Assembly (NCBI GenBank): GCA_037447655.1
Contig: JBBHKE010003299.1
Location: forward strand, 62,001-126,000
Source: Zygnema cylindricum
Taxonomy: Eukaryota > Streptophyta > Zygnematophyceae > Zygnematales > Zygnemataceae
DNA: 64,000 nucleotides
Direction: 5' to 3'
How positions within the stretch are numbered: position 1 is the first letter of the stretch; each line of letters begins with the position of its first letter. A program made the position numbers and the translations under genes. The notes below the pieces were generated by a model, which saw only the letters and a program-made list of their open reading frames with translations, made no database searches and was not told the DNA's origin. Below are positions 6,685-42,978 of this stretch, one piece after another.

Positions 6685-6694
6685 ATAAAGGGAG

Positions 6695-21740: not shown

Positions 21741-21756
21741 TTTCCACCAAACTCAC

Positions 21757-22206
21757 TCACAACTCCTCGGCCTTGTAAATGTGGAGATGGGGGGTTGCCA
21801 AAGCCTCAGTGAGGTTTCTTAAAATAAAGTTTTTGGGAGCAATGTTGATGTCTTCCCACATTTGGATGTCGTTCCCTGCAATCTTCAAGGTTGCTGCTCT
21901 GAGTGCTGTGGTAATAGGAGCAATAAGAGTAAATGGCGTCTCATTCTCTTTCCCCTTTTCGGACACAGTGTTGTCCCGATTATATACCTCATCTGCTTTA
22001 GCAGAGGGACCTGCATAAAACCTTATTCCACCCAACCCTGGTGGAGTTCCCTGAGGTGGACGTTTCACTTGTCCAGTGACAATACCCCAGTATAGTTTCT
22101 CGCATAAAGCCCCCATCATCATGTCTTCCCAACAGATGAACCCAGATCCAGTGAAGGTGGGCATCCTAGAGGGTGGGTCTATAACCTGGAATTCTGTGTC
22201 CTCCAT
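21757..22206 (-). pseudogene. Gag N-terminal part of copia element E, start codon in the LTR
   Basis: The 149-codon open stretch starts at the LTR ATG (22206) and reads MEDTEFQVIDPPSRMPTFTGSGFICWEDMMMGALCEKLYWGIVTGQVKRP. It passes through the LTR end (22187) and the primer binding site (22186-22172) without interruption. The second ATG of other copies is ATA here (M to I), so in this copy only the LTR ATG could start Gag. The stop comes after HIYKAEEL. This supports the idea that the LTR ATG can be a real start, though the element is dead. Confidence 0.75.
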
Positions 22207-23196
22207 TGGACTACAAAATTCAGGAAGCCTCTAGATAGTTTTTAGCTAACCCACTTTCAGCCACAATCACTACTGCCCAAGAGGCAAAATTGAGAATTTG
22301 ATAGCACCCTTGTGCAGCGTGGACTCCCTTGAGTCCGTAGCAAAAAGAATCACCGAAAATGGCCAACTAGCTGATAAGTGAGGAGGTGGCAAATATGTCA
22401 ATTTATACGAACTCTCAAAGAGAGAGGCGAGTGTCTACTGCAAAATTACTAAGTCCTAAACCCCTCTCACAACCCGTATCTACTATAGTACGATCCAATC
22501 AAATTAGTGTGTAGGACAAAAAGGTACTACGGTCGATGTACTTTCTATACCACCTGTGTATGACAAGACCATTGAGTGGACGCGTGTTCACGTTTTACTT
22601 GTCTTTATGTTCCCCAAAATTTCCGCGACAAAATGTTATCTCTTTGCGTGGCGTCAGGTCACGCCATGTCCGAAAACCGCCAAAGTGACCTTTCTGGGAT
22701 CTCGCCGCCGATATGTGATGTTGGATCAAAATCCGACATTTAATGTGAACCGTCGAAATAAATGTATGATTCATTTGTTTCGTGCGGGGATCATGTTTAC
22801 ATTATATTTTCAATTGGGTCTATGTTCCCTCATTCATAATGTCGTTAATTGGAATTACAATCTTGTTAAAGTTTATATATTTATCACACCTTATGTATAC
22901 TAGCGAACTTCTTTGACAGACCAGTTAGAGCTGACTGCTACGCCTCGCTCTGCCGGTCGAAGGTTCGAGTCCTACCGAACTCAAGCTTTTGTTGAGAGTG
23001 ACTTATATCACTCTTTAGTCTTGCTTATGGAGCTGAGGTAGCCATGGCTCCATCACTCTCTTTCTCTCCTTCAGTGACTACAACAAGTATCGGGGCTAGA
23101 GAGAAGGGGTGGAGGCAGGCTACTTGGGCTTGTCTTACCTTTTTCATTAAACTTCTTAGACTTAGAAAATACACTAAAAATCTAGCTATTTCAACA
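22187..23196 (-). repeat. 5' LTR of element E
   Basis: 1010 bp. It carries the antisense tRNA-like segment (22908-22990 on +; B-box GGTTCGAGTCC at 22962-22972, TTTT at 22987), a TATAAATT box near 22400 and the terminal hairpin with AATGGAG in its loop. Confidence 0.9.
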
Positions 23197-24941: not shown

Positions 24942-26029
24942 TGTTGAATTGAATGTATTTTCTAGGTCTGAATAAAGGAATTATTAATAAAAGGAATTTA
25001 GGAAAGGCAGCCTCCCTCTCGCTCCACTCTCCAAACCCCCACACTTGTCGCAGTCACTTCATGGCTGCCCATGCTGCCCAGAGAGAGAGACAGGCTGTAG
25101 TTTTTGGTAGGTTTACCAAAACGGTCTTGACGAACCGAGGATTTGATCCCGGTACCTACCGTCTATCAAGAATTTGATAGCCGATAGCTTTATCCTATAT
25201 TCTAGGATCAGTGCTAGAGTATTTAAGGTACGATAATTATATAAACATGAACGACGAAATATGTTACATTTAACAAATTACGGGATGGGTTGTACACGGA
25301 AACGGATTAGACCGCACGAATTTATCAAAACGACATTTTATTTAGACGACCAATATTAAAAGTCGGTCTTCATCGAACAACCGTGGCGCGAGCCAGGATT
25401 CCGTAGTGGGTGACTTGGCGTTTTCGGGCACCGCCACTCCGAATGACACGTGGCAAGATCCGGGAGGATTGCGAGATCTCCGGAACGCAAGATGACAATT
25501 CCGAATGTGACAAATGTCACATTATGGCGATGTCGTACATAGACCGTACAAAAATTACGCCGATACCTGTACTTTCTTGTACGGTACAGTCTTATGATTG
25601 GTGCGTACCTCAGTTCTAGGGGGCTTAGAGAGGGGTTTTAGGACTTAGAATAATTTTGGTAGGGTGCCGCCTCTCTCCCGAAGAGCATCTATATAAACAG
25701 GCAAATTTTGCCTTTTAATTACAACTCACTCGGTTGACCATTTTCAGTGACTGTGTTTGCTGCACACTCAAGGGAGTCCACGCTACACAGAGGTGTAGTC
25801 CGTCAAAGTTTTTGCTTGACTGGGTGGCTGGTTTTCTAAGGGAAATTCAAAGTGGGAGAATGTGTCCAAATACTCATATTCTAAATTTTCATTCTGTGCG
25901 GGAACTAAGCACACAGAAAGTCTTCTTTCACGGGGGTTAATCTGTATTAGGATTCTAACTGTCAAGGTGTCATTCATTTGGGTTTGAATAAACTTGGAGT
26001 CGACATTTTTTAGATAAGCATTTTATGAG
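24942..26029 (+). repeat. Copia LTR (third family), 3' end truncated
   Basis: The LTR starts TGTTGAATTGAATGTATTTTCTAGG directly against D coding sequence, without a polypurine tract. It contains a B-box-like motif on the minus strand (rc of GGATTTGATCCCGG, about 25140), CACGTGG near 25448, TATATAAAC near 25690 and the conserved GTGACTGTGTTTGC/GAGTC region. U5 matches the fragment at 30884-31035 in reverse orientation, but the last ~60 bases are missing where the next LTR begins. Confidence 0.7.
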
Positions 26030-26754
26030 TGTGGAAAATCACTAGATTTATAGAGTATTTTCTAGGTCTGAATTGTTTTGTAGAAAAAGAAAAAAAATCG
26101 TAAGCAACCTGCCTCCACCCGTTTCCTCTATCCCCTATACTTATTGTAGTCAGTGAAAGAGAAAAAGAGTAGTAGAGCCATGGCTGCCTCTGCTCCATAG
26201 GCAGTACTAAAAAATAACATAAGTCACTCTCAACAAAAAGTTGAATCTGGCAGGATTCAAACCTTTTACCGGCAGGGCAAGGCGTAGCAGTCAGCTTTAA
26301 CCGGTTTGTTGTAGGAGTTCGTTGAAATACATAGGGTGTGATAAATACTTAAATCGTACTATAATCCTTAATTCGATTAACGGAATTACGAATGAGGGGG
26401 CATAAAACTAGTTAATATATAGTGCGAACAAGATCCCGCATGAAACAAATGAATCGGACATTTATTTCAACGGCTAATATTAAATGTCAGATTTAATCCA
26501 ACGGCACACATCGCCGCCGCAATCTCGAAATGGTCACTTCGGCGTTTTTCGAACGTGGTATGACCCGGTGCCACGTGGAGGGTTAACATTGTGTCGTGAG
26601 AATCCCGAGGAACATAAAGACAAGTAAAATATGGACACTCGTCACCTAAAGGGCATTGTCCTAGAAAGACCATACAGAAAGGACATCAGCCGTATTACCT
26701 TTCTGTACTATGCAATGATTTAATTAGTTCGTACTGCAAAAGATAGGGGTTGTT
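26030..26754 (+). repeat. Copia LTR fragment, F1 type
   Basis: It starts TGTGGAAAATCACTAG, like the B 3' LTR (TGATGAAATCACTAG), and carries the antisense tRNA-like segment (26234-26318, minus) and CACGTGG near 26572. It ends within the pre-TATA region (AGATAGGGGTTGT), where the LTR of F begins. Confidence 0.75.
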
Positions 26755-28470
26755 GCAACTCTTAGACCTCCATTGGCCCTCAGAGTAAGCAGCTCACAAG
26801 AAGCCTCTAAGATAACCTTGAACCCTTTGAGTTCCAGCAAAAATAACTGCCACGCTGGCAGACAAAAACTTTGACCACCTCCACTTCTATGAAAGCAAGA
26901 CTCCCCTGAGTCGATAGCAAAAAAAAAAATTAAATTTGCTCCCATGAGGAGTAAGTTATTGAGGGTCAAAGTTGACCTTTTGTACAGAGGCTCACTTGGA
27001 GAGAGGGTCCTATCTACCAAATTTTTCTAAGTCTTATCTCTCTCTAAAACTATATCTATTAAAGTACGACACCAATCAAAATATTGTGTCGTATAGAAAG
27101 GTACAAGTGTCGGTGTACTTTCTGTATGGCCATTGTAGGACATGGCCAACCATTTGACACATGCCATATCTAGATTCGTTCCTCTAATTCTTAGAGATGC
27201 CGTAATCGAATGTGGTCGTGCCATGTGTCAATCGATGTGGTGGTGACCGAAAACCACCAAAATCATATTCCGAGATCTCGGCATCCTTCGCGGCTGTTCG
27301 ATCGAAACCGCATTTTAATCGCAGCCGTCATAAATCGTTGCGGGCTATTTGTTGCGCTATTGAAACAAAATGCGCGGTATTCGTTAGGAACCATACAATA
27401 CTACGTACTTTACAAACCGGTATCCAGGCGCGACGTTTATAGTTAGAGTTAAATGAATTAGTTCACGCTTCACAGTTTATATATTTGTCACACCCTATAT
27501 GTCTCAGCACCGATCCTAGACTATAAGATAAAGCTACCGTCTATTTCAAACTTCACGGACGGCAGGTACCAAGATCAAATTGTGGGTCCGTCAAGTATAT
27601 TTTGGAAAATCTACCAAAATCTACCACCTATCTCTCTATCTCTTAAGCAGCATAGGCAGCCATGCTCTAGCTTCCTCTTCAACTTTCAATGACTACGACA
27701 AGTGTGGGAGCTGAATAGAGGAGTTAAAAGCAGACTGCCTCGGCTTATTTTCTATCTTTTATTTTAAACTTAGAAAATACTATAAATAACCATTAATTTA
27801 TACACTCCCCTTATTTTCTAGTCACTCTTTAATTTCAGACCACACTTCTCGCGACAGAAAATTAGCTTAGGAGAAGGCACAAGTTTGGTCATCATATCTG
27901 CTACCATCTCGTTATCTAGTCTCTACTTTAAACTGATAATTTTGTTTTCAACCTTCTCTCTAACAAAACTGAGTCTAATGTCCATGTGTTTGGCTTTAAA
28001 ATGATGTTTAGGATTTGCAGCAATAGCGATTGCTGCCTGATTATCACAAAAACTTTTGTGCACACCACTCAAAAGGTGACCAAGCTCACCAAGCAAAGAC
28101 TTGACCCACATCAATTCTTTTACGGCAGAGCAAGAGTCCATGTACTTAGCCTCCATGGTGGACTGTGCAATGACCTTTTGCTGCTTGCTGCTCCAGCAGC
28201 AAGCCCCATCACCCACATACAATATATACCTAGATGTGCATCTCCTCATAGAAGCATCCCCATAGCTCGCATCACTCCAAGTGGTGATGTCAGTGTTGTT
28301 CCCACCCAAATGCAACCATAGAACTCTAGTCACTATGAGATATCTTAGGACTCTCTTAGCTGCCTCCCAATCTTTCTTTGTTGGAGCATTCTGACTCCTA
28401 CCTTGTACTCCTACAGCTGCGGCTATGTCCGAACGGGTACAATTCATGAAATATTAAGCTGCCCACTACT
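26755..28470 (-). mobile_element. Copia element F (C-like): 3' LTR plus RNase H end, truncated
   Basis: The LTR 26755-27804 runs from TGTATAAATTAATGG to GAGTTGCA, with the terminal hairpin loop CCAATGGAGG. Upstream, the polypurine tract AAATAAGGGGAG (27816-27805) and ~660 bp of pol remain. These encode RNase H: TTWSDASYGDASMRRCTSRYILYVGDG, then WVKSLLGELGHL and HHFKAKHMDIRLSFVREKVENKI, open for 174 codons (28447-27923). It is cut at 28470 by the LTR of G. The rest of F is missing. Confidence 0.85.
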
Positions 28471-29474
28471 TGTTGAAATTAACTAAAGGTTTTAATAGTA
28501 TTTTCTAGGTCTAAATAGATAGAAAAGAGTGACAAGCGCACACAGTCTGCCTCCACCTTCCCACTCCATCCCTTATACTTGTTGTATTCACTGAAGGAGA
28601 GAGAGAGAATAGTGGAGCCATGGCTGCCTCACCCTCACGAATGGAGGACTGAAAAGTGACCTAAGTCATTTTGAACAAAAAGGTTCAGTCCGACTCGAAC
28701 TATCGACTGGTAGAGCATGGCGTAGCCGTTTGCTCTAACCGGTCTGTCGTAGTAGTTCGCTAAGGTATATAGTGTTTGACATATATTCAAACTATGTTAC
28801 GTTAATAATTTTGATTAACGACGATGTAAACATAGATACATGGAACAAGTTAAATACAGTGCGGATAGGATTCCGCACGAAACAAATTAGTAAGACGTTT
28901 ACTTTAAACGATTGAGATGAGATACTAAATTCTATCTGACGGCGCTCATCATCACCGAGATCTCGGAATGGTCACTTTGGCATTTTGTGACGTGGCATGA
29001 CTTGGCACTACATGGAGAGATAACATTCGGTCGCGAGAATTTCGAGGAGCGTAGAGAGGACTGAAAGGTGGACACTCGTCTGTTTAATGGCCTTCTCGTA
29101 CAAAGGCCGTACAGAAAGTACATCGGCAGTAGTACTTTCTTGTACTGTACAATGTTCTGATAGGTTTGTAGATTCACTAGATAGGGGTTGTGAGAGGGAA
29201 CTAAGACTTAGGAAAAATCAGGTAGATGGTCCTCTCTCTCTCTTTGAGAGTTTGTATAATTGGCATCTTTGCAACCCTATAACTTATCGCCTGGTAGGGC
29301 GTTTTTCAGAGATTTTTTTTTCTACAAACTCAAAGGTGTCTTGGCTGCATAGGGGTGGAGTGAGATTGTCAACTTGTTTGCTTGGGCAGCAGTGGTTGCC
29401 ATTGAAAGTGGGTTAGTTAACAACAATCTAGAGGCTTCCTGAATTCTGTAGTCAATGGAGGACACATAATTGCA
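28471..29474 (+). repeat. 5' LTR of copia element G
   Basis: 1004 bp, from TGTTGAAATTAACTAAAGG to CATAATTGCA. It has the antisense tRNA-like segment (28675-28757, minus), TTGTATAATT near 29253 and the terminal hairpin with AATGGAGG in its loop. The U5 ATG (29455) runs into TAA after four codons. Confidence 0.85.
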
Positions 29475-29848
29475 GGTTATGGGCCCACCATCTAGGGTGC
29501 CCATCTTCAATGGATTAGGGTTTATCTTTTGGGAAGCCATTATGATAAGGGCTTTGTGTGAAAAATGATACTGGGGTATTGTTAGTGGACAGGTGAAACG
29601 TCCACCTCAAAGAACACCACCAGGATATGGTGGAATAAGATTTTTTGTAGCAACAACTGCTGCAACAGAGGAGGGAGATGATGGGGACAGCAATGTGTCC
29701 GAAAAAGGGAAAAAAAATGAGATACCTCGTACTCCTATTGCTCCTATTTCTACGACACCTGGAGCGGCGATCGTGAAGACCGTGGAGATTGGCGCTCAAA
29801 TGTGGGAAGACAACAACATGGCTTCTAAGAACTTCATTCTGAGACAAT
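29475..29848 (+). pseudogene. Gag fragment of copia element G
   Basis: The primer binding site GGTTATGGGCCCACC (29475-29489) is a perfect 15-nt match to the initiator tRNA anticodon arm and opens MGPPSRVPIFNGLGF. The pattern continues with KRPPQRTPPGYGGIRFFVATTAATEEGDD and WEDNNMASKNFILRQ, then stops at a junction with gypsy sequence at about 29849. An early TGA breaks the frame. Confidence 0.85.
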
Positions 29849-30110
29849 GTCGAGCGTGCTTGGGAACTGTGAGGTTTGGGTAAGAGGTCCGAGGAGGTGT
29901 GCATAAGAAACCTGCATTCCACCCCAAATGTTGATGCTCCCCCGGATCCGTGACAATGCCCTTCTTTGTTCATCCCCCCCTAGGGATAATGCATGGGTGA
30001 GGATAAGGAATTGAGTGCAAAAGAAAAATTATTCCGTACCCACCCCCCCAGATTTCCCCCCTCTTTTAGTCCCGCTTGACTAAGAGGATGAGATAAATTA
30101 GCCGCCAAAT
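29849..30110 (+). mobile_element. Fragment of the DNMT-gypsy family (gag 3' region), inverted
   Basis: This segment matches the reverse complement of about 36230-36460. Both encode ERAW followed later by EEVC(I/M)RNL(H/Q)STPNVDA and DP-stop, and share the next ~130 bases (GGGATAATGCA-type tract). It is therefore a second, inverted copy of the region after the zinc knuckle of the gypsy element to the right. It is not an LTR, because the right copy is internal. Confidence 0.65.
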
Positions 30111-30112
30111 TT

Positions 30113-30754
30113 GTTGTCCCCACAGAACCACGGATTTGCTCATTGAGAACATGGCTCCTAATTTAGCAGTAGCAAGCAGTCATGCCACCCCTAGTGACAG
30201 TGTTCACACATCAACAAGAGGTTGGGTACGGAAAACATATTGCAGGTAGAGGAACAGGAGGGCGGGTCTGCAAAGTAATTGAGGTGGAAGGTGGGTTCGT
30301 CTTCTAGCCCTCACAGATGGCAAGGGGCCACATTGATCTGATCTTCTTAAATTTTGTGGCCATCTTTCCCTTTTTTGGTAAAAACTCCTTTGTTACAGAC
30401 CTCCACTACTTTCAAAATCACTCGTCCGGCTGAGATGTCCAAAGTATCCTTCTTCTGTTGTATGCGATACACAAAATCTCCGGGCACGAAATGTCGTTGT
30501 TGAGGGACATAATTTATGCTCAGGCGTAGGGAATACCAAAGCTGAGCCCTGTGCTGAGTAGCCTGTAAAATGCCCATAGCGAGAGGCATTTCCTGGTGAA
30601 ATACCTTGGCCCTGTCGGCAATCAGTTTTTCTACAATCCCTGAATTGTCCATCTCCGGAAGCACAACCGCTTGAGCCGATGCAGCCCCAAGTAGGTGTTG
30701 TTCTACAACCACCGGTGCAGGTGGAGGAGCAGCAGTAGTAGTAGAAGTAGACAT
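30113..30754 (-). pseudogene. Gypsy integrase C-terminal part fused to an MSTST leader
   Basis: From the ATG at 30754 the frame reads a Ser/Thr/Pro-rich start (MSTSTTTAAPPPAPVV), then about 85 residues typical of a gypsy integrase tail: HRAQLWYSLRLSINYVPQQRHFVPGDFVYRIQQKKDTLDISAGRVILKVVEV, ending GKDGHKI at 30347. Beyond that stop the sequence still looks coding for a few dozen codons (NVAPCHL). The leader is also found at 7894-8000, so the join is probably a chimera. The integrase core that should precede it ends at about 31040. Confidence 0.55.
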
Positions 30755-30883
30755 GATAAACTCTCAGAAGCTATCAAGAATCCTACCAAACAGCTATTCT
30801 TAAGCGCTCACCAATTCTTATACAAGCATCCAAACCTCACAAAACTCTATCAGAATATAGAGAAGCATAAACACTAATTGAAA

Positions 30884-31035
30884 CTCTGAGACCTCCATTG
30901 GCCCTCAGAGTATGCAGATCCAAAAGAAGCTTATCTAGATAGTGCCGACTCCAAGTTAATATAAACCCAAGTGACTGACCCCTTGACAGTCAAAACCCCA
31001 ATATAGATTCACCCCTGTGAAATAACACTTTCTGT
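30884..31035 (-). repeat. Copia LTR 3'-end (U5) fragment within gypsy sequence
   Basis: On the minus strand it resembles U5 of the LTR at 24942, but with the complete end: the hairpin ACTCTGAG/CTCAGAGT with CCAATGGAGG in the loop, then TTTCA. It breaks the gypsy integrase after the residues LSQFGAPA. Confidence 0.7.
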
Positions 31036-31640
31036 GTGCTCAGTTCCACCACAGAATGCTGGCGCCCCAAACTGTGACAGGACTCTCTGGAGAAAGGCGT
31101 CGGAAATGGACTTGGACTCCTTTCGGGGCACGACCACAAGCTCTATCCATTTTGAGAAATGTTCAATCATGACCACAACAAAACGATTCCCACATCTTCT
31201 GGTCGGAAGAGGTCCCAAAAGATCCAAAGACCACCGATAAAACATTCCCCTGATGGGAAGAGAATGGAGCTGAGTCCCGCCCTTTTTTGTCAAAAGCCGC
31301 CTTACCTAGATCGCAGGAAGAGCAAGTCTGTACAATTCGGTTGACTTGGGCCCGCATCCCGTGCCACCAGTAAGAGCCTGTAACCAAGGAAGTGGTTCGC
31401 TTCTGTCCGAAGTGTCCACATTGTTTATGGAGATTGGTAATCAGAGTTTCTCGATCTGAGGGAGGAGGAACCACTCTCCTAGTACCGTCTGTCCATTTCC
31501 AGAGGAGCACTCCTCGGTCCCACTCATACGCCGCCATCCGGGTCTGAACTCGGGATAATTGAATTCCAGCCAAGTGGGGAAGAGGAGATCCCTGCTGAAT
31601 AGATATGAGAGCTTCGAAGTCATTCCAAATGTCTTTCCGT
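31036..31640 (-). pseudogene. Integrase N-terminal and core part, DNMT-gypsy element
   Basis: An HHCC-type zinc region is visible near 31480-31330 (LHKQCGHFGQKRT and later QTCSSCDLGK). The catalytic core start follows: RWSLDLLGPLPTRRCGNRFVVVMIEHFSKWIELVVVPRKES at about 31250-31110, where WSLDLLGP carries the first catalytic Asp. Sequence stops at the copia fragment after FGAPA, so the other catalytic residues are lost here. There is a frame change near 31290. Integrase would insert the DNA copy into host DNA. Confidence 0.82.
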
Positions 31641-32210
31641 CTGACTCATATGGGTGCCTGCCCCTCAACATCTGCTGCAAAAGTTGACAATTTCCCCCCT
31701 GATGAAGAAGCCAAATGAAGGCGGTGGATGCTCGAATGAGTCCCTAACAGATTTCCGGATCCTTGTCGTGCCGAGCCCCGGTGGAATCCAGGGTAGAAGG
31801 ATCGGGGTTTCGGCTCAGTCCGTCGACATTCCCATGAATTTCCCTTGCCCGGTGGACAATGCTGAAACCATATTCCTGCAGGATAAGAACCCATCTGGCG
31901 AGTTTGCCGGTCAACTTACTATTTTCCATGATCCACTTCAAGGGTTGGTGATTGTTGATTAGTGTGAAATGGACCCCGTACAAATAAGGTATGAAATGCT
32001 GGATGGCCCAAACCGCGGCAAGAAGCTCCCCATGATAACTGCTATAATTTCCCTCAGCTCGATTATTGCTCCGGCTGGCGTAAGCCACCACATACTCGGC
32101 ACCTGCGTCGTCAACTTGAGCTAAAACAGCTCCCAATCCAAACCTGCTCCAATCAGTGTAAAGGAGGATCAGGCATCCGGAGCACTGGATGCTGCTTGAG
32201 GGCATCCTTC
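31641..32210 (-). pseudogene. RNase H domain, DNMT-gypsy element
   Basis: Contains ILLYTDWSRFGLGAVLAQVDD (the usual TDAS is TDWS), YASRSNNRAEGNYSSYHGELLAAVWAIQHFIPYLYG with the catalytic E, and REIHGNVDGLSRNP with the late Asp. The frame differs from RT by a small shift near 32200, and another shift lies near 31740. RNase H would remove the RNA template during reverse transcription. Confidence 0.83.
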
Positions 32211-33190
32211 AAGAACTGGAAAGCGATCTGCTGTTCCTCGGCCCACTGCCATTCTTGATCTTTCCGTAATAGCTTATTGAGGGGCTGGGCGTGACTACTG
32301 AACTCGGGAATAAACCTGCGATAGTAGTTAGCCAGGCCGAGAAAGGTGCGCAAGGCAGAAATGTCCTGCGGGGGAGGAAGAGCGTCGAGGGCTGCAACCT
32401 TCACCATATGGGGACCCAATGTCCCAGGAGTTACCTCATGTCCGAGGTAAATGATTTTCTGCACCCCAAAAATACCCTTGCCCGAGTGACATTTCAAGCC
32501 CGCTGCTTGAAGAGCCCGGAGAACGATCTGGATATGCTCCAGGTGTTCTTCAAAGGTCTTGGAAAATATTATCACATCGTCGATGTAGCACCTGGCACAA
32601 TCGATTCCTCGGAGCGCTTCGTCCATGGCCCATTAGAACTTTGCTGGTGCATTCTTCAGTCCGAAAGGCATGTAGATCCACTCATAAAGTCTGGATCCGG
32701 CCCAGAATGTCGTTCTCTCCCGGTGGTTTGGTTCCATGGCAATCTGGTGGAAACCATTCTTCATGTCCAGTGTGGAGAAAATAGTGGCCCCAGCAAGAGA
32801 GTCGAATATCTCTTCCGAAGTTGGCATTGGGTACCGGTCAGGAATGGTGGCCGTGTTCAACATGCGGTAGTCCCCACACATTCCGAAGTCCACAGTTTTC
32901 CCGGATGAATCCTTCTTAGGAGGGAGAACTGTGGGGGAAGCAAACCCATGGAGTCCGGTACTTTCCTGAACCAACCATGCGTCCACCAATGTTTGAACCT
33001 TTGCAGTAATAAACTCTTTCTCTTTGAAGCTGAGAGGATATTGTTTCTGCCAAACCGTTGCGGTTTCGTCGATCAAATCTATCCGGAAGGGGGTTCTTTT
33101 GTAGATTCCGACATCTGTTTCGGACCATGAGAAAACCTGAGTGTTTCTAGCCAAAAGTTCTGTTAGCTGTTCTTTCTGCTGAGGGTCCAG
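32211..33190 (-). pseudogene. Reverse transcriptase domain, DNMT-gypsy element
   Basis: Gypsy RT motifs in order: VQESTGLHGFASPTVLPPKKD, FGMCGDYRMLN, IPDRYPMPTSEEIFDSLAGATIFSTLDMKNGFHQIAM, WIYMPFGLKNAPAKF, then a TAA (32635-32633), then WAMDEAL and the catalytic YIDDVIIFS (32587-32576 for YIDD), FGVQKIIYLGHEVT and FLGLANYYRRFI. The frame is the same before and after the TAA. The changes at that point (TAA TGG where relatives have CAA CGG-like codons) would fit C-to-T mutation. RT follows the DNMT domain without a break, so the two were made as one polyprotein. Confidence 0.88.
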
Positions 33191-33499
33191 CTGCTCCCCT
33201 AGAGTCCAGTCCATTGTTCTCGGCTCAACCGCAGCCCAAGCTTCCGGTGGTCTTCCCCAGAGGTTGATGTCGAATTCTAGCCCAACCTGTGGATCTGCCT
33301 CTATTCCTCCGGATAATACTTTACTGCTATTAACTTCCGCTAAGCTGTCTCCTTCTGAGCTCCTGTTCCCCCCCGCTGAAGGAACTCTCGGGTGTAGATT
33401 TTTTCTCTTTTCTCTCCCCCCCTCAAGCTGCAAAGTTGCTTGCATGGACAGTAACTGTGGAGCTTGAAGGTATTTTATGCGTAAATCTGGAGCGTGGAG

Positions 33500-34534
33500 A
33501 CTGGAATAGGCAAGAGCATGCTTTACAACCCATGTAATGGCATTTAAGTCCATGCTTTGCCCTATGAGGCTGCACCGCTGTAGGTCTGAAATACCTGGTG
33601 CTGCCGTGGTTTCCGGATGAAATCCCATTGCCTGTTCTCGTTCCGATATTGTTGGTGCTGTCCAAAGTCTTTCCTTGCTGTCAAAAATCTTTCCAGCTGC
33701 TCCTTTTCGGTAGGCGTGACTGTGAGGAAAAGATACCAACGTGGGGAGTGCTCGACGTGGGAATCCTGGGATATTGCATTGGAAGAAAGGTGTACGATCC
33801 GGTTTTGTTACAGGTGTTGCCATTCTCCCTTTTCCCAGTATCTGCTGCACTGAAATCTGGGGGTCGCGGGTTTGTGTCTCCAACAGTTGCCGGAGGACTA
33901 GAAAAAGGATCATATTGGTCCAATATGCCCGGAGTCTGTGCGCTCGAGATCCCATTTGAGCAGCATCAAAAACCAAGGGAGGTCCCAGAATACGGGTTAC
34001 CTGATTCCAACTTTCTGCAACTTGCTTTCGTTTGTCATCCCCCGGGTGGACATTCTCCAGAATGTACCCCACTAGTGTGTCTTGGAGCTGCTGAATCCAC
34101 GATATCAATGTAATCATCTGATAGAAGGTTCCACTTCAGTGGTCCTGATGCCCTCTTCCTTGTCCTGCGAGGGAGTATCCCTGACAAGGCCACCCCGTCA
34201 CAACCAGATCTACCCTTCCCAGACTAGCTAAATGAGGTGCCATTATATTATCCACATTCTGGGGAAGACTCCGGTGAGCTTTGGAAATGGAAGACACTCG
34301 AAGCTGTTGAGGATATAAGCGGTGCAGTTGATGTAGGCGGTGTTCGCTGACAGCTCGCGCTTCCGGTGAAATTTTCACTGCTGTGTATGACTCCACCTGA
34401 TACCCTGCTTTTAAAACTGCCTCCAAATCAGAACTGATTCCTGAAAATAAAGATAAAATCCGAAGTCCGGAGTCTGGGACTGTCAATGACACCACTTGTC
34501 GATTGAAGTTTCGCTCCCAGTCTTGGTTTTGAAA
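33500..34534 (-). pseudogene. Cytosine-5 DNA methyltransferase domain inside gypsy Pol (one stop codon)
   Basis: About 340 residues with C5-methyltransferase motifs in the right order. Motif I: LRILSLFSGI (34465-34436). Motif II region: ESYTAVKISPEA, Lys where Glu is usual. Motif IV: VVTGWPCQGYSLAG with the catalytic Cys at 34186-34184. Motif VI: ENV at 34057-34049. Motif VIII-like: GSRAHRLRAYWTN near 33950-33910. Motif X region: REQAMGFHPE and LQRCSLIGQSMDLNAI near 33640-33540. The family transfers a methyl group from S-adenosylmethionine to cytosine C5 in DNA. One TGA (34138-34136) lies just after motif IV, with the same frame on both sides, and the frame continues into RT. The spacing and the RAHR..YWTN motif look closest to the Dnmt3 class, which is my inference. 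As it stands it is probably not functional. Confidence 0.87.
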
Positions 34535-34671
34535 TCATGTGACTGGATTGTCGACTCTGTTTTCGGTAATAGTAAGGCCGAGAATGTTTGATCCACTCCC
34601 CGCCGAAGTTTCGCCACCTGCAATAATCTGTCTGTGTATTCTCTCTCCCACCGCTTGGAAATCGGGAATTG

Positions 34672-35943
34672 CTAGATGTCTTCGGAAATATTTGTGGAAC
34701 TGTCAAACAGCTCCGTCGGAGAGGTGGTAGAATACACGGGGTAACAGCCAGACACCGGAACATTGGTCTTTCCCCGGTTCCATAAATCCAAAGGAACCAC
34801 AACTTTGGTTCCTTCGGGATTTCCTGGGTCTTGAACTGTACATTGCTCTTTCCAAACACTCAAACTCAAATTCATGCGGGTCCAAGTTGCCATTCCCAAC
34901 AGAATTTCAAACTGATTCCCTTCTACCACTAAGAAAGTAAGTCCAATTTTCACCTTCTGTCCCGCATCATGTGAGAATTCAATGTCCATGTCTTTGATGA
35001 TCCCATGGACTGGCTGATTGCCGCTGCTGACTGTGCTCAAGCAGATGTTACTCGGGCAGATCTGGGGTCTGAGTTCTTCCGGCATTTTCTGCAATGCAGA
35101 AGTAGTGATGAGGTTGGCAAGTGCTCCGGTATCCACCACAGCGTCCTGATACCCGTTGTACCCGTTCAGTTTGAAATTCCCGGTCCGGTTTAGAATGAGT
35201 GCCACGGACAAAGTTTTGTAGTTCCTATCTGCCATAGGGGTCTTAGGATCTGAAGACAAGTATACCGCCGTGGGTGGTGTCACCCTGTCGACTTTGTCTT
35301 TTCCAGAATGGATCTCTTCTCCCAGGGCCTGAATGAGAATCTCTTCGGGCAGATTATGGGAGGAAGCATGGGTCTTGACATGGGTCAAGGCATAAGGCAT
35401 CAAATGCCGGACCAGCATAACAAGAGGCTTGGAGGAATGGAGCGGAGCGTTTGGGGAGGATGTCGGCGAATTTTGTTCCTGATCCGGTTCTATCTCTTCG
35501 TTGCCCTCAGTTTCAGAACCGGAATCGAGTACGGGTGGAGTTTTTGGCGCATCTTTGTCCAGGTTTTCGGCCATAAATCGTTCAAACCAATCCTGTGTAC
35601 TTTGGTTGTCCTCTTCCAGTGATTTTGTCTCCTGCTGCAGTTTCTCTTTCTTATAATTTTCGAAACCGGGAGGCAATTTAGGTTGAGGAGGAAGAGGAGG
35701 GGGTTGAGTGGGCATGATCCCAAGGTCTATGTCACTGTTCAGAATGACTGCCCTGGGCGTGAAAGACAAAGGCCCTGTGGCCTTCCGGTTGTGGTCCTTT
35801 TGGCCCATTTTCCGCCTGTCTCTCCTTTGATCTGATGTTGAGGAGCGGAGTTGTCTACGACCATCTCCCACTCCAACATTCCATCCTCTGTGCATGAAAC
35901 TGTTTGCATGGTGGGCATTTGGGGGTTCCAAATCCCAGCCCAT
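34672..35943 (-). pseudogene. Protease region of the DNMT-gypsy polyprotein
   Basis: Open for 423 codons. Residues ~50-210 are charged and proline-rich. The retropepsin-like domain follows: DAVVDTGALANLI with the catalytic DTGA at 271-274 (35133-35122), then a flap region and FEILLGMATWTRMNL, the usual ILG-type end. It would cut the polyprotein into mature parts. It is in the same frame as the zinc-knuckle Gag part but not in the frame of DNMT-RT, and the join lies in 34672-34534, where a third frame is open. This is either two damaging shifts or a true gag-pol frame change; I cannot decide which. Confidence 0.8.
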
Positions 35944-36396
35944 TAAATCATCGTCATTAACACCCGATGTGCTTTGAAGCTCAAGCTCCGCTAGCTTTTG
36001 TAGTAGCTCTTGCTTCTGTCTTTGGAGTCGTTGCGCTGCCGTAAGAGGAGCAGGCCGGTCAGGCGACCCCTAACGGAGTGCAGCCAATTCTGCAACCATG
36101 GGAGTTATTTGCACACTCTTGTGGTCATCTTTGGGTTTGTCCGGAGTTTTTGCGGAAAGGATCGAACGACTCTCATTTTCTTCCTATTCTTTGGAGAGTA
36201 GCTGGGAGTGTGGCATTTAGAGGGCTTCCAGCGGAGTAGCACTAAATCTGGGAAGGGGGGTACAGGGTACTTTTCTTTTCCACTCCATTCCTCCTTACTC
36301 TCATTGCATATCCCTGGGGGGGGAGGGTAATGAACGGAGATGGGCATTATCACGGATCCAAGCGAGCATCAACATTTGGGGTGGATTGCAGGTTTC
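35944..36396 (-). other. Gag-protease linker of the DNMT-gypsy element
   Basis: The stretch between the zinc-knuckle part and the protease contains several stops and a G-run of 9. It encodes no recognised domain. About 36230-36460 recurs inverted at 29849-30110, showing this linker belongs to the repeated family. Confidence 0.5.
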
Positions 36397-37480
36397 TCAT
36401 GCACACCTCCTTGGACATATAACCTGGACCTCCCGGTTACCAGGCACGCTCCACAATCTCGTTGGAGATCTGAGCATCGTCAAACTTTGGCAGTTTGATT
36501 TGCCGCAGTTGGGACTGAAACATTTTCGAAGTTTCGCTCCGGGGAGTGGGTCGGTAATTAATCTTTGTGACCGGTGTTCTCTCCCCCCCCCTGCTTTGAG
36601 CCTTTCTTCATGCTGCTTCTTGCTCCTTTTTGAACGCTCTACCTCCCATTCTTTGAACTTGAGGGCTAGCTCTGGTTTGATTTTTCTTCTGCAGCGTTTC
36701 CATCCATGTCCACGTTGTTGACAATTTAGGCAATTGTACAAAATCACCTGATCGTCGGCCCTCATTGCGTTTTCTGGCCCGCTGTCCACAACTTGCTTCC
36801 CTTTAAGCTTCCGCAAAGCTTGGAGTTCGGCTTGTTCTTCCCCACTTAAGGAAGTTTCCCCGGCGAATCCTGCAAAATTCGCTCTTGCCTTGCCGGTCAC
36901 GGCTTTTTCTCTCGCCTCACTGTGAACGAAGTGGTGTATAACTTCATGGCCACCAAGGATATGTCCTTGGCCGAGGGATTTAAGTCCTGGATGGCCTGTT
37001 TTGCAATCCAGTTATCCAAGGCAGTCTGCCCTGTCGGTCCGAAGGAATTACGGACAGCAATGAAATACTTGGTCGCCATTGCGGGAAGGTCAATGGTAGA
37101 CAGTTTAGTCTACTGACAAAGACTAGAGAGGCGGTTAAAGAGTGTCTGAGGCGTCTCATTCTTCAAACACCGGAATTCCGTGAATTCCATGATGGCTGAT
37201 TGGTTCCTCTCGACAGTAGAGGAGTCTCCAGATGTTTAGAAGAGTGGTGCAAGGGGTAGGATTCGCCACCATACGAGTTGCAGCCCGAGCTGCCTGAATT
37301 GCTTGCAGCTGGTTAACACAGGCCCTCCCTTGGGCCTGCAACTTCATATCATCGGTGAAGGTAGCTGTTACAGGGGTCACCGCTGCAGTAGCCAAATCTG
37401 CCTCCGCTCGTAAAACTTCTGCATCCAGGGCCGGATCTGAAATTTTGATGCTTGGAGCCATCAAGAGGGGTTGACGCCCC
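36397..37480 (-). pseudogene. Gag capsid and zinc knuckle, DNMT-gypsy element
   Basis: Capsid-like part: FRCLKNETPQTLFNRLSSLCQ, then (after one in-frame TAG) MATKYFIAVRNSFGPTGQTALDNWIAKQAIQDL (37190-36960). A CX2CX4HX4C knuckle follows at 36732-36691 (CLNCQQRGHGWKRC) with basic residues RRK after it. Upstream, 37464-37156 encodes a helical Ala-rich segment. These parts would build the particle and bind element RNA. Order and spacing match Ty3/gypsy Gag. Confidence 0.8.
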
Positions 37481-39954
37481 TTCTAATCTGCCAACGCCCC
37501 TCCAGAGAGGTAGTTGACCATCATAGGAAAGAGAGTTGTTTTCGAAGTCGTCAGGAATAGCTCCTCCCCTGTACTTGTTAATTTCAGATTGGGTGAAGGA
37601 TTTCCATAACAATTCGAAATCAGAGAAAGCTATCCCAGAGCTATCTCCTGTAAAGATTCGGATGTCCCCCATTTCCTTTTCCTCCTCTGCCGAATGTGTG
37701 AACTGAGACAACGAAGGTCCGGTGGGACTGACAAACTGGGCTGGCGAAGTGGCTCCTAGGTCCTCTTCCTCGGGAATGGATCCGACTCCTCCTCCGGTAG
37801 GAGGTGTTGCCCTGTGAGGTGTGGAATCTCCTCCAGCAGAGGAAGTACGTGTGCCTAGAAATGTGGTAGGAGGAAGGGTATTCCTTGATGATTCTCTTGG
37901 TGCAGAGGATATCCGTGGGCCTGTCTGTCCGATTGAAGTAGAAGGGGCCCACTCCCCTATATCAACCCCTCTATATTCACTGGAGTATCGCTCGTCCCGG
38001 AGAACTGTTTTCGTGGACGGGATGTGAAGCCGAGGTCGGTTTGCAGGTGGATATTGGGGTAGGGATGGAGAAGAAGATGGAGATGAAGGCCGGTTCTGGG
38101 GAGAAGGTGTCTGTCTCCTGAACGCGGTCGGTTTCCGAGGCCTTCTTCTGGAGGTTTCAAGGGGAGGAGTTCCAGAACTAGAGGATGGGGAACGCCGGTG
38201 AGGAGGGGAGTATACGTCGTACTTATAGGGTAAATTCAGCGGACCTGGGGACCCACGGTCGGCTCCAGTAAGAGAAACGGAAGGAGATGGAGAGGAGATG
38301 GGATTGTCCCGGGGTTCTGCTGCCGGAGCCTCGGAGTGGGAAGTAGGAGGATGAGGAGGGAAAGGAGGAGGATCAGGGGACAGTCTGGGTGGAGGAGAAG
38401 GAGGTGTAGACGGTCTCAAGGGGATGTGAATTCTTTCGTCCGGTCGTAACTCCACTAAGGCCTCAACAGCTTCAGAAACCTCCACCGAAACAAAAGTAGG
38501 CTCTTCCCGCGGAGCCGCTTCGAGTTCAGACGGTAAATCTGCACCCAAACCCCCAATATTAGGTCTTGTGTCTGCCCCCTCTTCCCGCTGAAGAGGAGGT
38601 TCATGACCAATCTCTGAAGAAGGAGCCTAGGGTGGAGCTCCGGGCGAGGTTTCCGCTACTGGTGTTGGAGGGATCCGCCCAAAGAGGATCCCACTGGACC
38701 TCCGCCTAGCTTCCCGAATGAGATTCAATTCCTGCTCCCACAACTTTCTCCGTTTTTCCTCTAACGCTTCCCAATCTACTGTAACGCGTCCAGTCCCCGC
38801 CGTAGCCGAGCCCTGTGATTTTAAAATTTCCACTAGTTCCTTAGCCCTTTCCACTACTCCGGTCAGATCAGCTATCCCTGCTCCTAGAATTTCTGGATCT
38901 GTAGGCCTGGCTCGAAACAATCCCTCGGACAACTCTTCTGGTTCGGTTTCCGGAACCTCTCGGTCAGTGGGTTCGGGTCGCCAGAACCCTCCATCAGGGC
39001 GGACCCGGGGTGCCGGAGGGGTATATCTCTCGGTGGAGACTGGCACTCGCGTTGGGGAAGGTTCTTCCTTGGGAATAGGTGCAAATCTACCCTTGCTATC
39101 CCTGTGGTCAAACTTCTTCCCCCTCCCCAGCTCTGGAACCCCGCTATCGCAGCCACCGGCTCTCCTACGAGACCTCGAAGCTGGGCGCCCACGGGACGGT
39201 AGGCTTGCTGCAGTGTCTTGGGAAGAAGATGGAGGAGGGCGAGAAGGAGGAGCCCTCCTGGGCCGTTCCCGCAAGGACTGGGAGGAACCACTCTCTGAAG
39301 AGCTACTTAGAATCTCCACTACCCCTTCACTGGTTTAACCACCCGAGGTCGATCCGACCAAGACACTTTTTGCACCAACTCCTGCTTAACCTTCAGTTCA
39401 TGAAGATCATGAAGAGCAAGGAGTTCCTTTCGAACAGGGCGGCTAGGATCCGTCAAAACCGCAGGGTCAATCTGAATTTCGGCCTTGGGAATCTTTGATC
39501 TTGTGTGAAGCCCGACCTCCGGAAGGGGACCCAAAAGGGGCTCCCGCTGAGCTTACCTCTTTGGCCTAACCCGGGGTAACACTCGGTTTCTTTCTTGAGC
39601 CTGTGTTCAAGACTCCTTTCTTTCCTCGGCAAAGGTTCTGGAGGACTCTGCCAAGGAGGGAAAATGTTCAGGAGTGAGGCTAGGAGGAAATGGGGGCGAA
39701 GTTTGTGGTTCGGGTGGTTTTGGAGGAGTTTCAACCCTAACAGGCTCAGGCATCATCCCCTGGAGAAACCGCTCTATGTTGGCAAGCGAGGTGAAGGGGA
39801 CGGATTCTTCGGGAATCTGTGACTCTTCTTCTGATACCACCGCTTCTCGATTCGCCCGTTCTTCCGGCCTGGCACCAGAGAGATTCTTATCTTGAGCTTC
39901 ACCTCCCCCCATGATGACGAAGGTCTCGAAAGAGGAATTAACGAAAGAAAACAA
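37481..39954 (-). pseudogene. Long proline/serine-rich N-terminal Gag extension, DNMT-gypsy element
   Basis: Two main open parts (39319-38627 and 38548-37349) and a first part (39954-39607, starting near MGGGEAQDKNLSGARPEE) encode a protein rich in Pro, Ser, Arg and Glu with no recognised domain. The last ~80 residues (EEEKEMGDIRIFTGDSSGIAFSDFELLWKSFTQSEINKYRGGAIPDDF) look folded and resemble the start of a capsid domain. Codon use is GC-rich compared with the copia elements nearby. Breaks between parts are short stops or shifts. Assignment to Gag rests on position and strand. Confidence 0.6.
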
Positions 39955-41003
39955 TACTCGCTTCCGCCAAGAGAGCTTCTAAAGTCAAAAAGCTCCTATC
40001 CCCTCTAATCCGAAGGAGACAGGGTGGGTTTTTCAGTACTGTGCTTATTCCACAAGAAGTCTATAGCATTCGTTCCCTCAAAACCCACTGTTTCGGTGCC
40101 TAGAAATTGAAGTTTTACCCCGGGAAGTCCGCGCCAAAGCAAAAGAGACTAAAAGTGAAGACACAAATGCACTACCACGTGGACATATAAAAATAAATAG
40201 GAATGGCTGTTTCAGATTTAACAATATCACCTTGACCACAGAAATAAAATATAAGATGGAAGATTTAAAAGATGGCGAAGCAAGCTTAACCTACCCTGGT
40301 AATTTACGATGACAATGTGAGAAAGGCGAAATCTCTCCCGATGGCAGTGTAAATAGGTATGGTACTCCTTCAACCCTCGGTGTCCGCAGCTCAGAACCGA
40401 CTAGAGTCTTCTCAGTTTCAAGCAGCGAAAAATCCAAAAATCACCCAAAGGGACGGTAGTGCCAACCACTAGCCCGAACTATGATTCCCAAAATGGACAA
40501 ATCCAAAACAGAGATGGCAATAGAGTCAAACAAAACAAAGATTCTCCAAAAGAAGGTTTGTTGGAATTTCTGAGGGTTTTCACAGGAGACAGTACTGAAA
40601 AGCAACCTGTCTCCTTCGGCCCCAAGCGCCTTATACATCAAAGTTTGTCCAAAATCAGGTCCAAAAGTCGGAACTATGCTATGAACCAATGAGCGGCAAG
40701 CAAGAGCAATCGAACTGACAGAGGACAAAATAGTCCGTATTACACTTGGGGCAAAAAGTTAGACATCTGACTACGGCTAGATCCGCGGCCGGAAGTTATT
40801 ATTTGATCCGTAGTTATAAGCCAAACCATAAAGAAAAGGACACGGAAGTGCCAAGCTTTGACTGAAGGTAATTAATAGACCGCTGGTCAGTTGGACCTGA
40901 ACTGAATTTCTACAGACAGCTAACAGCATAAGCTAGATTACAGTCTGGAAGTCTACGTGGCAATCCACAATGTACCCCCCACTAGGGCTGGTGGAAGCTA
41001 GTA
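39955..41003. other. Presumed leader/LTR region upstream of the DNMT-gypsy element; no gene
   Basis: No coding sequence that I trust. A 5' LTR and primer site are expected here, but no second LTR copy exists in the window to mark the limits, so I cannot place them. CCACGTGGAC near 40177 is a G-box-like motif. Confidence 0.35.
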
Positions 41004-41550
41004 CTATGCGACGGAACTGCGATCTTTGAGACGGTAGAACTTTGTCGTCCGGCCTTCGTTAGGCGCGAAATAAAGTGCGTCTAGTTCAGTTGAGGAAATA
41101 CCATAATCCTTTCGGTTGGTTGCGCTCACTTTTCCGTGCTTTGAGAACAGTACGGGTAGAAAGGGTACGGAAATCCTCGGTAATATAGAAGTGTGCTTGA
41201 AAAGCACTCGAGCTTGACAAAGATAAGACATTACCAATTCTTTTGTCATAAACTTCTTCGAGACGTTGCGGCAGTTGAGATTCTTCTTTCTAATCTGCAA
41301 TCCCATCCACAATAGATGACAAGTCCCTCTCTTCAAAATATGAGCTCAGTATATTTTCCCAGTACAGGTAGTCCGATACATCAAAGATAGGCAATTTGGG
41401 CGGTGGGCCCATAACTTGTTGTAGGTCATGGGCATTCTGACTTGACAGTGATCCACTTGCACTCGGCGTCACACTCGCTCCAGCTAGTATATTCATCCCA
41501 AGCAGGTGCCGGAGGAGCACTTGGGCCAGCAGGGACTAAACCATTATTAA
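41004..41550 (-). pseudogene. Divergent copia Gag-like fragment
   Basis: On the minus strand an open stretch reads SSQNAHDLQQVMGPPPKLPIFDVSDYLYWENILSSYFEERDLSSIVDGIAD (41520-41290). The MGPPPKLPIFD..YLYWE pattern is the Gag start of the copia elements here, including the primer-site sequence GTTATGGGCCCACC. Upstream residues continue open and are not LTR-like. After the stop, frame pieces (EESQLPQRLEEVYDKRIGNVLSL) continue to 41004. It could be the remnant of another copia family or a Gag-derived host sequence. Confidence 0.5.
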
Positions 41551-42850
41551 ACATGACAGCAGAAGCAAACCCAAAGACAAATACCTATTTGACAAGATCT
41601 GTATTGTAAGATATGTAACTCTAAATGAAAGAGGTCTTTCAACGAGAAAAACATAGACCACAACAAATCAAAGACAATAGAACATAACACACCTTAAAGT
41701 GCACTTGGTGCTCTCATTTCTTTAACTCTGTAGAATGTGTATTCTGTGTCAAACTGATCATTTCTAATTGAACTAAATACTCTAAAGATCCTCATAACAT
41801 CTAAAACGTATGTACCGTGTTCACCTGAAAATCTATTCTAAGTGGTTGGACCAGAATTGTCCAATCACAATATCTATACCCTAAAAATCTAGGAGATACG
41901 TTTCACGTCTACATTCATTGGCGGCCGTACACACTAATTTACCCAAAGATAACTACTCGAGTAGATACTACAAAAATCCACAATAAATCTGGTTAACTTT
42001 GAACAGTTGGTAGTCCAAAAATATTCTAAGTCCTAGACTCAAATTTTTAAGACTTACTAATGCTTACTTTTCAATAGGTGGGAGCGAGGGACCGAGCTAA
42101 TTGTTCTCTATTTTTTTATGTTTGGACGAAATCGAAGGTGGTACATAGGAGTCATGAAACGGAGGACAATTGGAATATGGGCCCGTTAGCTACCTGTCAT
42201 CTGTGGAAAAAACATATATACGCTAAAATATGTGTGGTTGTCAAATCTTATGCTACTATCGAGTCCTATTTGCGTATAGTTCGGGTATCGCACAAGCCGC
42301 TCTGCTGACGTATACGAATATTCCCCATTCGGTCGTGTACGACGTGTTCAAAATTGATTTGATAAAAGCCTAGTCGTCCAATTCGTACGGATTTGGACTT
42401 TTTTCCGATTTTTACGTAGTATTCGCTACTTTTATATTTTTGGTAAAATTCGTTTAATTTTCGCTGTACGGAAAATGTACGGAATTTTTAAAAAGAGACG
42501 TTGCACCATTTGCGCGGCCGAAGTTTGAATTTGTTTTGAACCCTAAAATCAAAAAATGTACGGAATTGTACTGGTACTTAGTCATTTTATCTCATTTTTT
42601 TCATCGTTAAATGCATATCGTGCGTAGTATTCGCGAGTTCGTTTCGTGCGTATTACGCGCACGGGACAACTATGGATAAAAACAATATTCCCATGCAAAC
42701 CGCAAGATTTAAAATTTTGGACATTTCGTTTTCGTATTCAACTCGATTTATCAATGTCAATATCGAGGGCAGTCTCGTCCTGTCCGATATGACGATTCTC
42801 TCGAAATGGCGATCTCCCTGATAACCCCTAAATTCTGGTTGGGCATTTTG
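41551..42850. other. Intergenic sequence; no gene seen
   Basis: AT-rich, with a short LTR-like piece near 42012 (CCAAAAATATTCTAAGTCCTAG). Around 42600-42720, GCGTAGTATTCGCG and the following TTTAAAATT part resemble 49560-49760, so this is probably an old repeat. Confidence 0.4.
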
Positions 42851-42978
42851 CGGTCCAGCTGGCAGCATTTGAAATTGGACTTTTCTCCTGTTGCTGAAGG
42901 GCAGCAACTGGAGAGAGTAAAATATTCGAAGGTACAAAAACTGTTTCTGTTCTCTCTCTCCTGCCTTCTCTTGCAGCC

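Follow-up and report, generated by a model that had tools for sequence, protein, structure and literature searches.

A decayed Ty3/Gypsy element with a DNMT3-class methyltransferase domain in pol, and its multi-copy family with a PHD finger behind the integrase

The window, the whole stretch of 64,000 nucleotides that was analysed, contains a retroelement on the minus strand. From its 5' end, a truncated leader repeat is followed by gag-like, protease (PR), C5-cytosine methyltransferase (DNMT), reverse transcriptase (RT), RNase H and integrase (IN) regions, then by a PHD-finger tail and a 3' repeat (Table 1). A plant-type BTB/NPH3 gene adjoins the element on the plus strand (42,898–45,819); the NPH3 neighbour reported in the initial annotation was recovered as a BTB domain (frame 42,898–43,560) and an NPH3 domain (frame 44,815–45,819). 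The same annotation had placed a methyltransferase between the retropepsin and the RT, in the frame of the latter, and this arrangement is indeed seen on the minus strand. It had also called the motif set complete-looking. All motifs are present, but the single frame leading from DNMT into RT is broken by the TGA listed in Table 1 and by a stop at 32,635–32,633, so that the wording fits the motifs and not the reading frame. The strand had not been stated; the plus strand of 33,500–34,534 is stop-rich in the translated frame.

Table 1. Features of the element copy in the window, in the order of its coding strand, and the repeat that abuts it.
Feature	Position	Strand	Evidence and remarks
Truncated 5' repeat A1 / 5' leader	39990..40791	−	73–77% identity to the A region of C544
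Gag-like region, frameshifted	37706..39915	−	46–53% amino acid identity to the open gag-position frame of C544
Gag zinc knuckle CLNCQQRGHGWKRC	36691..36732	−	Motif scan
357-bp insert in opposite orientation between gag and protease; A2 end joined to B2	36099..36455	+	Alignment to C544
Retropepsin (protease) region	34672..35943	−	DTGA at 35,133–35,122 (motif); Asp_protease_2
DNMT3-class C5-cytosine methyltransferase domain	about 33380..34513	−	One in-frame TGA at 34,138–34,136; class from relatives
Reverse transcriptase	32432..32878	−	RVT_1 8.1e-10 and 7.7e-8; YIDD at 32,587–32,576
RNase H domain, frameshifted from RT	31870..32166	−	Pfam RT_RNaseH 7.9e-32
Integrase: zinc-binding H2C2 domain plus a portion of the DDE core (rve), the two not in the same frame	31060..31468	−	Pfam
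Decayed PHD-finger tail 3' of integrase, three stops in the finger	30101..30346	−	76% amino acid identity to the PHD tail of C544
3' repeat B1, end GCTCGACA at 29,848; no A2 after it	29848..30055	−	Repeat comparison
Outside the element: repeat interpreted as a Copia LTR, starting TGTCTCAG, abuts the 3' end	28471..29846	−	

Several regions of this copy are eroded. The A1 repeat starts (from 40,791) at A position 427, the first about 426 bases being missing. No Pfam gag match was obtained for the gag-like region, and at the place corresponding to the zinc knuckle in another copy, C1344, zf-CCHC scored 17.2 bits, below the cut-off. The protease motif lies in a frame different from that of the DNMT, and Asp_protease_2 reached 18.4 bits there (cut-off 24.3). 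Integrase_H2C2 was found at 1.5e-16, and rve at 1.5e-4, which is below its cut-off. The insert between gag and protease matches A positions 1045–1187 at 96.5% and the B end of C544 at 89.9%; by this similarity, it is a piece of a different member of the family. With the TGA in the DNMT, further stops, frameshifts, the 5' truncation and the inserted fragment, the copy is dead. No direct repeat of at least 60 bases occurs within 26,000–44,000, classical LTRs being absent around the copy because of its split repeats (see below) and its truncation.

On the minus strand the DNMT motifs follow in the order LFSGIS, GWPCQGYS, ILENVHP, SRAHRLRAYWTN and MGFHPE...LIGQSMDLNAI, after which the RT begins; we take these to be motifs I, IV, VI, VIII and the region towards X, respectively. 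A comparison with PF00145 (DNA_methylase), which the initial annotation had proposed, gave 21 bits for the N-terminal piece (cut-off 22, E 2.5e-4) and no match for a longer DNMT–RT piece. When the domain was searched in full, the stop being written as X, DNMT3A in the PDB was matched at 5.8e-8.

The assembly from which the window derives comprises 352,776,454 bases in 2,689 contigs. A PF00145 profile search of this assembly scored at least 123 places among 782 candidates. Thirty of these loci were fetched, and 29 match element DNMTs; within about 1.5 kb, PR is found in 27 of the 30 and RT in 25, which bears out the claim of a DNMT captured by a Gypsy pol. The 30 loci were found via the DNMT, so RT-defined copies lie outside the count. 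Over their best segments the loci are 35 to 73% identical to the DNMT of the window. They form three groups, of which A is the nearest to the window and the others are named B and C. With a query from group C, at least 120 places of 1,867 candidates were scored; all 121 rows of this search show at least 66% identity, and 12 of them are full-length (1–335) without a stop. Other copies are thus numerous: the assembly holds at least 143 distinct DNMT places (120 of group C and 23 of groups A and B) in three subfamilies. These counts are lower bounds, so more DNMT copies are likely. Near-identical pairs on different contigs (L008/L009, L019/L020 and L022/L023) may be alleles or assembly duplicates.

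These copies bear on a possibility which the initial annotation had itself allowed for, namely that the family as such lacks the DNMT, the segment having entered this one copy later, and on the further one that the motifs came together by chance in the window copy only. The window copy is broken and does hold another insertion, the 357-bp fragment; the same domain nevertheless recurs in nearly all PF00145 loci fetched, mostly with RT close by, and at the group-C places. Both possibilities, which we regard as negligible, were ruled out on the strength of these genome copies.

Copy C1344, a member of group C, consists of a single open frame of 2,395 codons with the layout gag-PR-DNMT-RT-RNaseH-IN-PHD. 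Searched separately against Pfam, its two halves matched DNMT, RT, RNaseH, the H2C2 and rve domains of integrase, and PHD; the zf-CCHC and PR matches stayed under their cut-offs. The Gypsy domain set PR-RT-RNaseH-IN(DDE) is therefore present, the PR match being weak. No tyrosine recombinase family appeared in the Pfam scan of the pieces of C1344 and of the group-A copy C544, in which DNMT and RT likewise lie within one open frame. Between C1344 and the window copy, identity is 36% across 827 residues of DNMT-RT. By identity and architecture, the window almost certainly holds a decayed copy of a multi-copy Ty3/Gypsy family with a DNMT3-class domain in pol and a PHD finger behind the integrase. 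A search of plasmid DNA gave no match.

The sole non-element locus among the 30, L007, shows an exon-like stretch (1501–1749, GGPPCQGASGHNRFR...ENVTDL), presumably, by its motifs, of a host chromomethylase. Together with the BTB/NPH3 domains this exon points to a streptophyte genome.

To assign the class of the methyltransferase, a profile was built from 10 open relatives and run against the PDB. It reached DNMT3A at 77.5 bits (6.7e-21), a match far beyond chance. Scores were up to 68.5 bits for DNMT3B, 37.6 for M.HaeIII, 36.6 for M.HhaI, 33.4 for DRM2 and 24.0–32.1 for DNMT2/tRNA C38 enzymes; no DNMT1 or CMT chain was among the 55 profile matches at E 0.01. The domain of L024 was modelled by AlphaFold2 with a mean pLDDT of 71.2 and a pTM of 0.74, residues 336–378 being below 50. 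In a Foldseek comparison of this predicted fold with the PDB, the best 50 of 172 rows (E 0.001) were all DNMT3 entries (TM by target 0.38–0.77, identity 21–24%). The DNMT3 motif set, I, IV (Cys), VI (EN), VIII (RxR) and X, is present in the element DNMTs. Profile and predicted fold thus point to the DNMT3A/3B class, as judged by scores and not by a tree. The catalytic class would be common to the element and the animal DNMT3A/3B enzymes, from which the element differs at motif IV: it has PCQG, or ECQG in group C, whereas DNMT3 alignments show SPCND. Neither PWWP nor ADD was found by Pfam in the polyprotein pieces scanned from C1344 and C544.

An origin of the domain from a bacterium, phage or giant virus instead of a eukaryotic DNMT3 was considered, as C5 methyltransferases of phages and giant viruses match the predicted fold (31 viral proteins, E 0.001). 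DNMT3A, however, receives about twice the bits of the prokaryotic enzymes. Of 15 pattern matches in GTDB genomes, none was confirmed as a relative, and IMG/VR yielded four loci, with 43% identity over about 56 residues or 28–30% over about 155–180. No close relative having been found, this origin was set aside as very improbable.

Selection on the DNMT was assessed in 16 copies picked for a frame that is open or, in three of them, broken by a single stop, a choice that may lower the values. The ratio dN/dS was obtained for 31 of 39 within-group and none of six between-group pairs, dS being zero or saturated in the others. It lies at 0.07–0.39 in 30 of the 31 pairs (group A 0.12–0.35, group B 0.16–0.19, group C 0.07–0.39). 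The exception, the group-B pair L018/L030, has a ratio of 1.19 at a dS of only 0.015. These data show that the DNMT is under purifying selection. Open copies keep the methyltransferase in this way, and the enzyme should therefore be useful to the element.

This use need not be DNA methylation. The domain could be kept for another job and methylate little DNA: it might bind or methylate element RNA or act as a structural spacer. A relative from Klebsormidium nitens was inactive in yeast according to the main text of PMC5890265, group C carries ECQG, and a CpG decay footprint is absent here: CpG observed/expected is 0.61–0.75 in group-A loci and 0.59 and 0.70 in the rest of the window, and transition/transversion ratios among copies are 1.35 for CG, 1.37 for CHH and 1.59 for CHG. 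The youngest group-C copy has a CpG observed/expected of 0.89, which may reflect group or age. By these two measures no clear deamination footprint is seen in the copies, and methylation of integrated copies is therefore not supported by the CpG-decay proxy. Against another job stand the Cys of motif IV, the EN of motif VI and the RxR of motif VIII, all invariant in the 10 open copies, and the profile assignment to DNMT3 and not DNMT2. We consider such a job quite unlikely.

A further module is the PHD finger, which was looked for in groups A and C. It lies 3' of the integrase in both, the DNMTs of the two groups being 39% identical (L024 versus L015). It was found in 10 places (C544, an older copy beside C544, C1920, C1042, C507, C2458, C1870, C1344, C1407 and C2526); C1374 has part of it, and the window a decayed form. 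No PHD tail could be recognised in five further 3' stretches (L043, L045, L047, L057 and L059). Pfam PHD scored 2.9e-10 in C1344 and 3.7e-4, below cut-off, in C544. The C4HC3 zinc ligands are present, with one ligand altered in C2458 and in C2526. The best PDB matches by sequence include PHF12, BAZ2B, WSTF, Lid/KDM5B, PHF21A (BHC80), AIRE, CHD4 and UHRF1; the list also holds the double PHD proteins KAT6 and DPF3, and ATXR5. Many PHD fingers of the PHF12, BAZ2B, WSTF, KDM5, BHC80, AIRE, CHD4 and UHRF1 type read unmodified H3. In three of six pairs the dN/dS of the PHD tail is 0.12–0.22, the others being saturated; the tail, too, is under purifying selection.

Chromoviruses, in which a chromodomain follows the integrase, are Gypsy elements that likewise have a chromatin-reader module at this C-terminal place. 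The elements described here differ from them in having a PHD finger and no chromodomain (Pfam scan), an added DNMT and split repeats. A PHD-bearing Gypsy integrase was not described in the literature searched, by titles and abstract openings; in the available part of PMC5408684 a PHD domain occurs in a reference title. A PHD finger on such a Gypsy integrase may be new.

The ends of the elements, examined in groups A and C, are split direct repeats. In C1344, A1 (85,514–86,444) and A2 (94,981–95,911) are 100% identical, and B1 (94,737–94,978) and B2 (95,912–96,154) 99.6%; the outer ends read TGTCATG...CACGACA, with TTGG on both sides. The group-C copy C2526 has the same order with repeats 76–96% identical piecewise, and C1407, also of group C, contains B1-A2-B2, the stretch fetched ending short of A1. 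In group A, C1042, C507, C2458 and C1870 read B1, two bases (GC, GC, AC and GC, respectively), A2 and then B2, and B1-AC-A2 is seen in the older copy beside C544 as well. The other three of the seven group-A copies tried at predicted offsets (C633, C2553 and C1204) showed no 3' match, nor did C1974 and C1662, fetched earlier. The full order A1-body-B1-A2-B2 is seen in C1344, C507, C1870 and C2526; the window copy is without A2-B2 and the start of A1.

A1 and A2 of C507 are 98.3–98.5% identical, and ACGT flanks both of its ends. Matching 4-bp flanks thus occur in two of five full-order copies with both ends read, C1344 and C507, which are the two youngest; they are absent in C1870, C1042 and C2526 (A1/A2 identity 91%, 79% and 76–96%, respectively). 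The A1 of C1042 is perhaps from another element. Three further group-A copies, C544 (L031/L032), C1374 (L041/L042) and C1920 (L035/L036), stop exactly at the B1 end. None of them has A2-B2 in the DNA fetched or a 4-bp target duplication.

The B1-A2 junction is palindromic, CA-NN-TG. A G run opens B1 in C1344, C1407 and the group-A copies, at the position expected of a polypurine tract; reverse transcription would accordingly define the LTR as B-A, while the inserted ends are A...B. From this we infer that a circle carrying the B-A repeat twice gives the full order once one of its palindromic B-A junctions is opened, and the short A-body-B form would be the product expected from a one-repeat circle. 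A deletion between B1 and B2 would likewise yield the short form, but the target duplication should then persist, and none was seen; misassembly of the short forms is possible. The integration model accounts for copies without the 4-bp duplication only through age or rearrangement.

The assembly of K. nitens, about 104 Mb, is smaller than the 353 Mb here. Its Gypsy element KnitGypsy-Dnmt3 encodes a DNMT3 within the Pol frame and has its repeats in a DIRS-like order (de Mendoza et al., 2018, PMC5890265, main text). Our element belongs to this published kind, including the DIRS-like repeat order: both are intronless LTR Gypsy elements with the DNMT3 inside the Pol frame and under purifying selection, Ka/Ks being given there as below 0.2. 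The likeness to charophyte DNMT-Gypsy elements drawn in the initial annotation is thereby confirmed. Of its suggestion that the locus extends or refines that picture, refinement holds; the locus does not open it, the kind being already published. The two are likened by description and not by sequence, and here the elements occupy more than 100 places. The PHD finger, present here, and the term 'split direct' are absent from the main text of PMC5890265 (figures and supplements aside), which does not mention the palindromic B1-A2 junction either.

Other elements share part of this organization. SymbioDIRS-Dnmt3 of Symbiodinium likewise has a DNMT3 in pol and repeats in the order A-coding-B-A-B, but with a tyrosine recombinase and a DIRS RT instead of a DDE integrase and a Gypsy RT (PMC5890265, main text). 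The split direct repeats of Ngaro/PAT and VIPER, as described in the available text of PMC6681497, also place A1 at the 5' end and B1-A2-B2 at the 3' end. These elements use a tyrosine recombinase, in contrast to the H2C2 and rve integrase here and the 4-bp target duplications of two copies. In the accessible part of a 2025 survey (PMC12344493), some DNMT3s are assigned to retrotransposons of streptophytes and dinoflagellates, the LTR ones being called Copia.

The best overall explanation, which we consider fairly probable, is a DNMT3-carrying Gypsy family with cDNA-methylating, PHD-steered integration. The DNMT would be made as part of Gag-Pol and packaged together with the RT. It would methylate the newly made element cDNA, before or at integration, and the methylated new copy might resemble host chromatin or escape host attack. 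The integrase would act at the palindromic B-A junction, so that the cDNA should pass through a circle or a circle-like form, and would be steered by the PHD finger toward chromatin with unmodified histone H3K4. Taken singly, cDNA methylation as the main role of the DNMT has an even chance of being right, PHD targeting of the integrase could as well be true as false, and for the circular cDNA intermediate the balance is slightly unfavourable. Points counted against this explanation are the lack of a clear CpG footprint, the L018/L030 ratio, the ECQG of group C, the missing 4-bp duplications and, from the main text of PMC5890265, the K. nitens Gypsy DNMT that gave no methylation in yeast. The authors call this last result inconclusive since human DNMT3B failed too; in the same text, two Symbiodinium DIRS DNMT3s showed de novo CG methylation in yeast, and cDNA self-methylation was proposed for DIRS DNMT elements.

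Alternatively, the DNMT might act in trans on host chromatin (insertion sites, host genes or rival elements), aided by the PHD finger, and not on cDNA. The high copy number would suit such a role, as would the sequence proximity of the finger to those of PHF12, BAZ2B, WSTF and the other proteins named above. The DNMT, however, lies beside the RT within pol, where cDNA is the nearest substrate, and the K. nitens methylome is land-plant-like despite the (fewer) elements of that genome (PMC5890265, main text). Action in trans seems to us unlikely, and we prefer the reading in which the DNMT methylates cDNA of the element itself, perhaps in circular form.

Methyltransferases recur in elements whose repeats imply circular cDNA. 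Some DIRS-order elements carry one (PMC6681497, available text), adenine methylases in some and DNMT3 in Symbiodinium, and a large split-repeat Gypsy family is now added. Because of this recurrence, methylation may serve the circular cDNA stage. We offer as a tentative and rather doubtful extension that the element is a writer–reader retrotransposon, with a DNMT3 writer by the RT and an H3K4me0 PHD reader behind the DDE integrase as a counterpart of the catalytic and ADD domains of animal DNMT3.

A streptophyte genome can thus house DNMT-carrying Gypsy elements at more than 100 sites, and these fall into three or more diverged groups. The 2018 study (PMC5890265, main text) left open why DNA methyltransferases are taken up by retroelements, a question on which the PHD finger, together with the palindromic junction, gives concrete handles.

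The surroundings of the element are rich in Copia elements. The 1.4-kb Copia-LTR-like repeat against its 3' end (Table 1) is 75% identical to a repeat in the equivalent place of C1920 (L035 1606–2901). It was considered for this reason as the element's own LTR and rejected because no such repeat was seen next to the 3' end of either C544 or C1374. The neighbour common to the window and C1920 may reflect coincidence or a shared insertion preference. The first 28,000 bases of the window are largely built of related pieces. At 3–2754, two repeat arms of ~1 kb lie in opposite orientation (3–1024 versus 2754–1741, 75%). Two elements, probably Copia, at 16,840–23,196 and 1528–7689, have direct terminal repeats of ~1.0 kb and 0.75 kb with 86–87% identity. 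A tandem duplication of ~400 bp (56,773–57,574, 93% identity) overlaps a Gypsy-type ORF with a Tf2-1-like SH3 domain.
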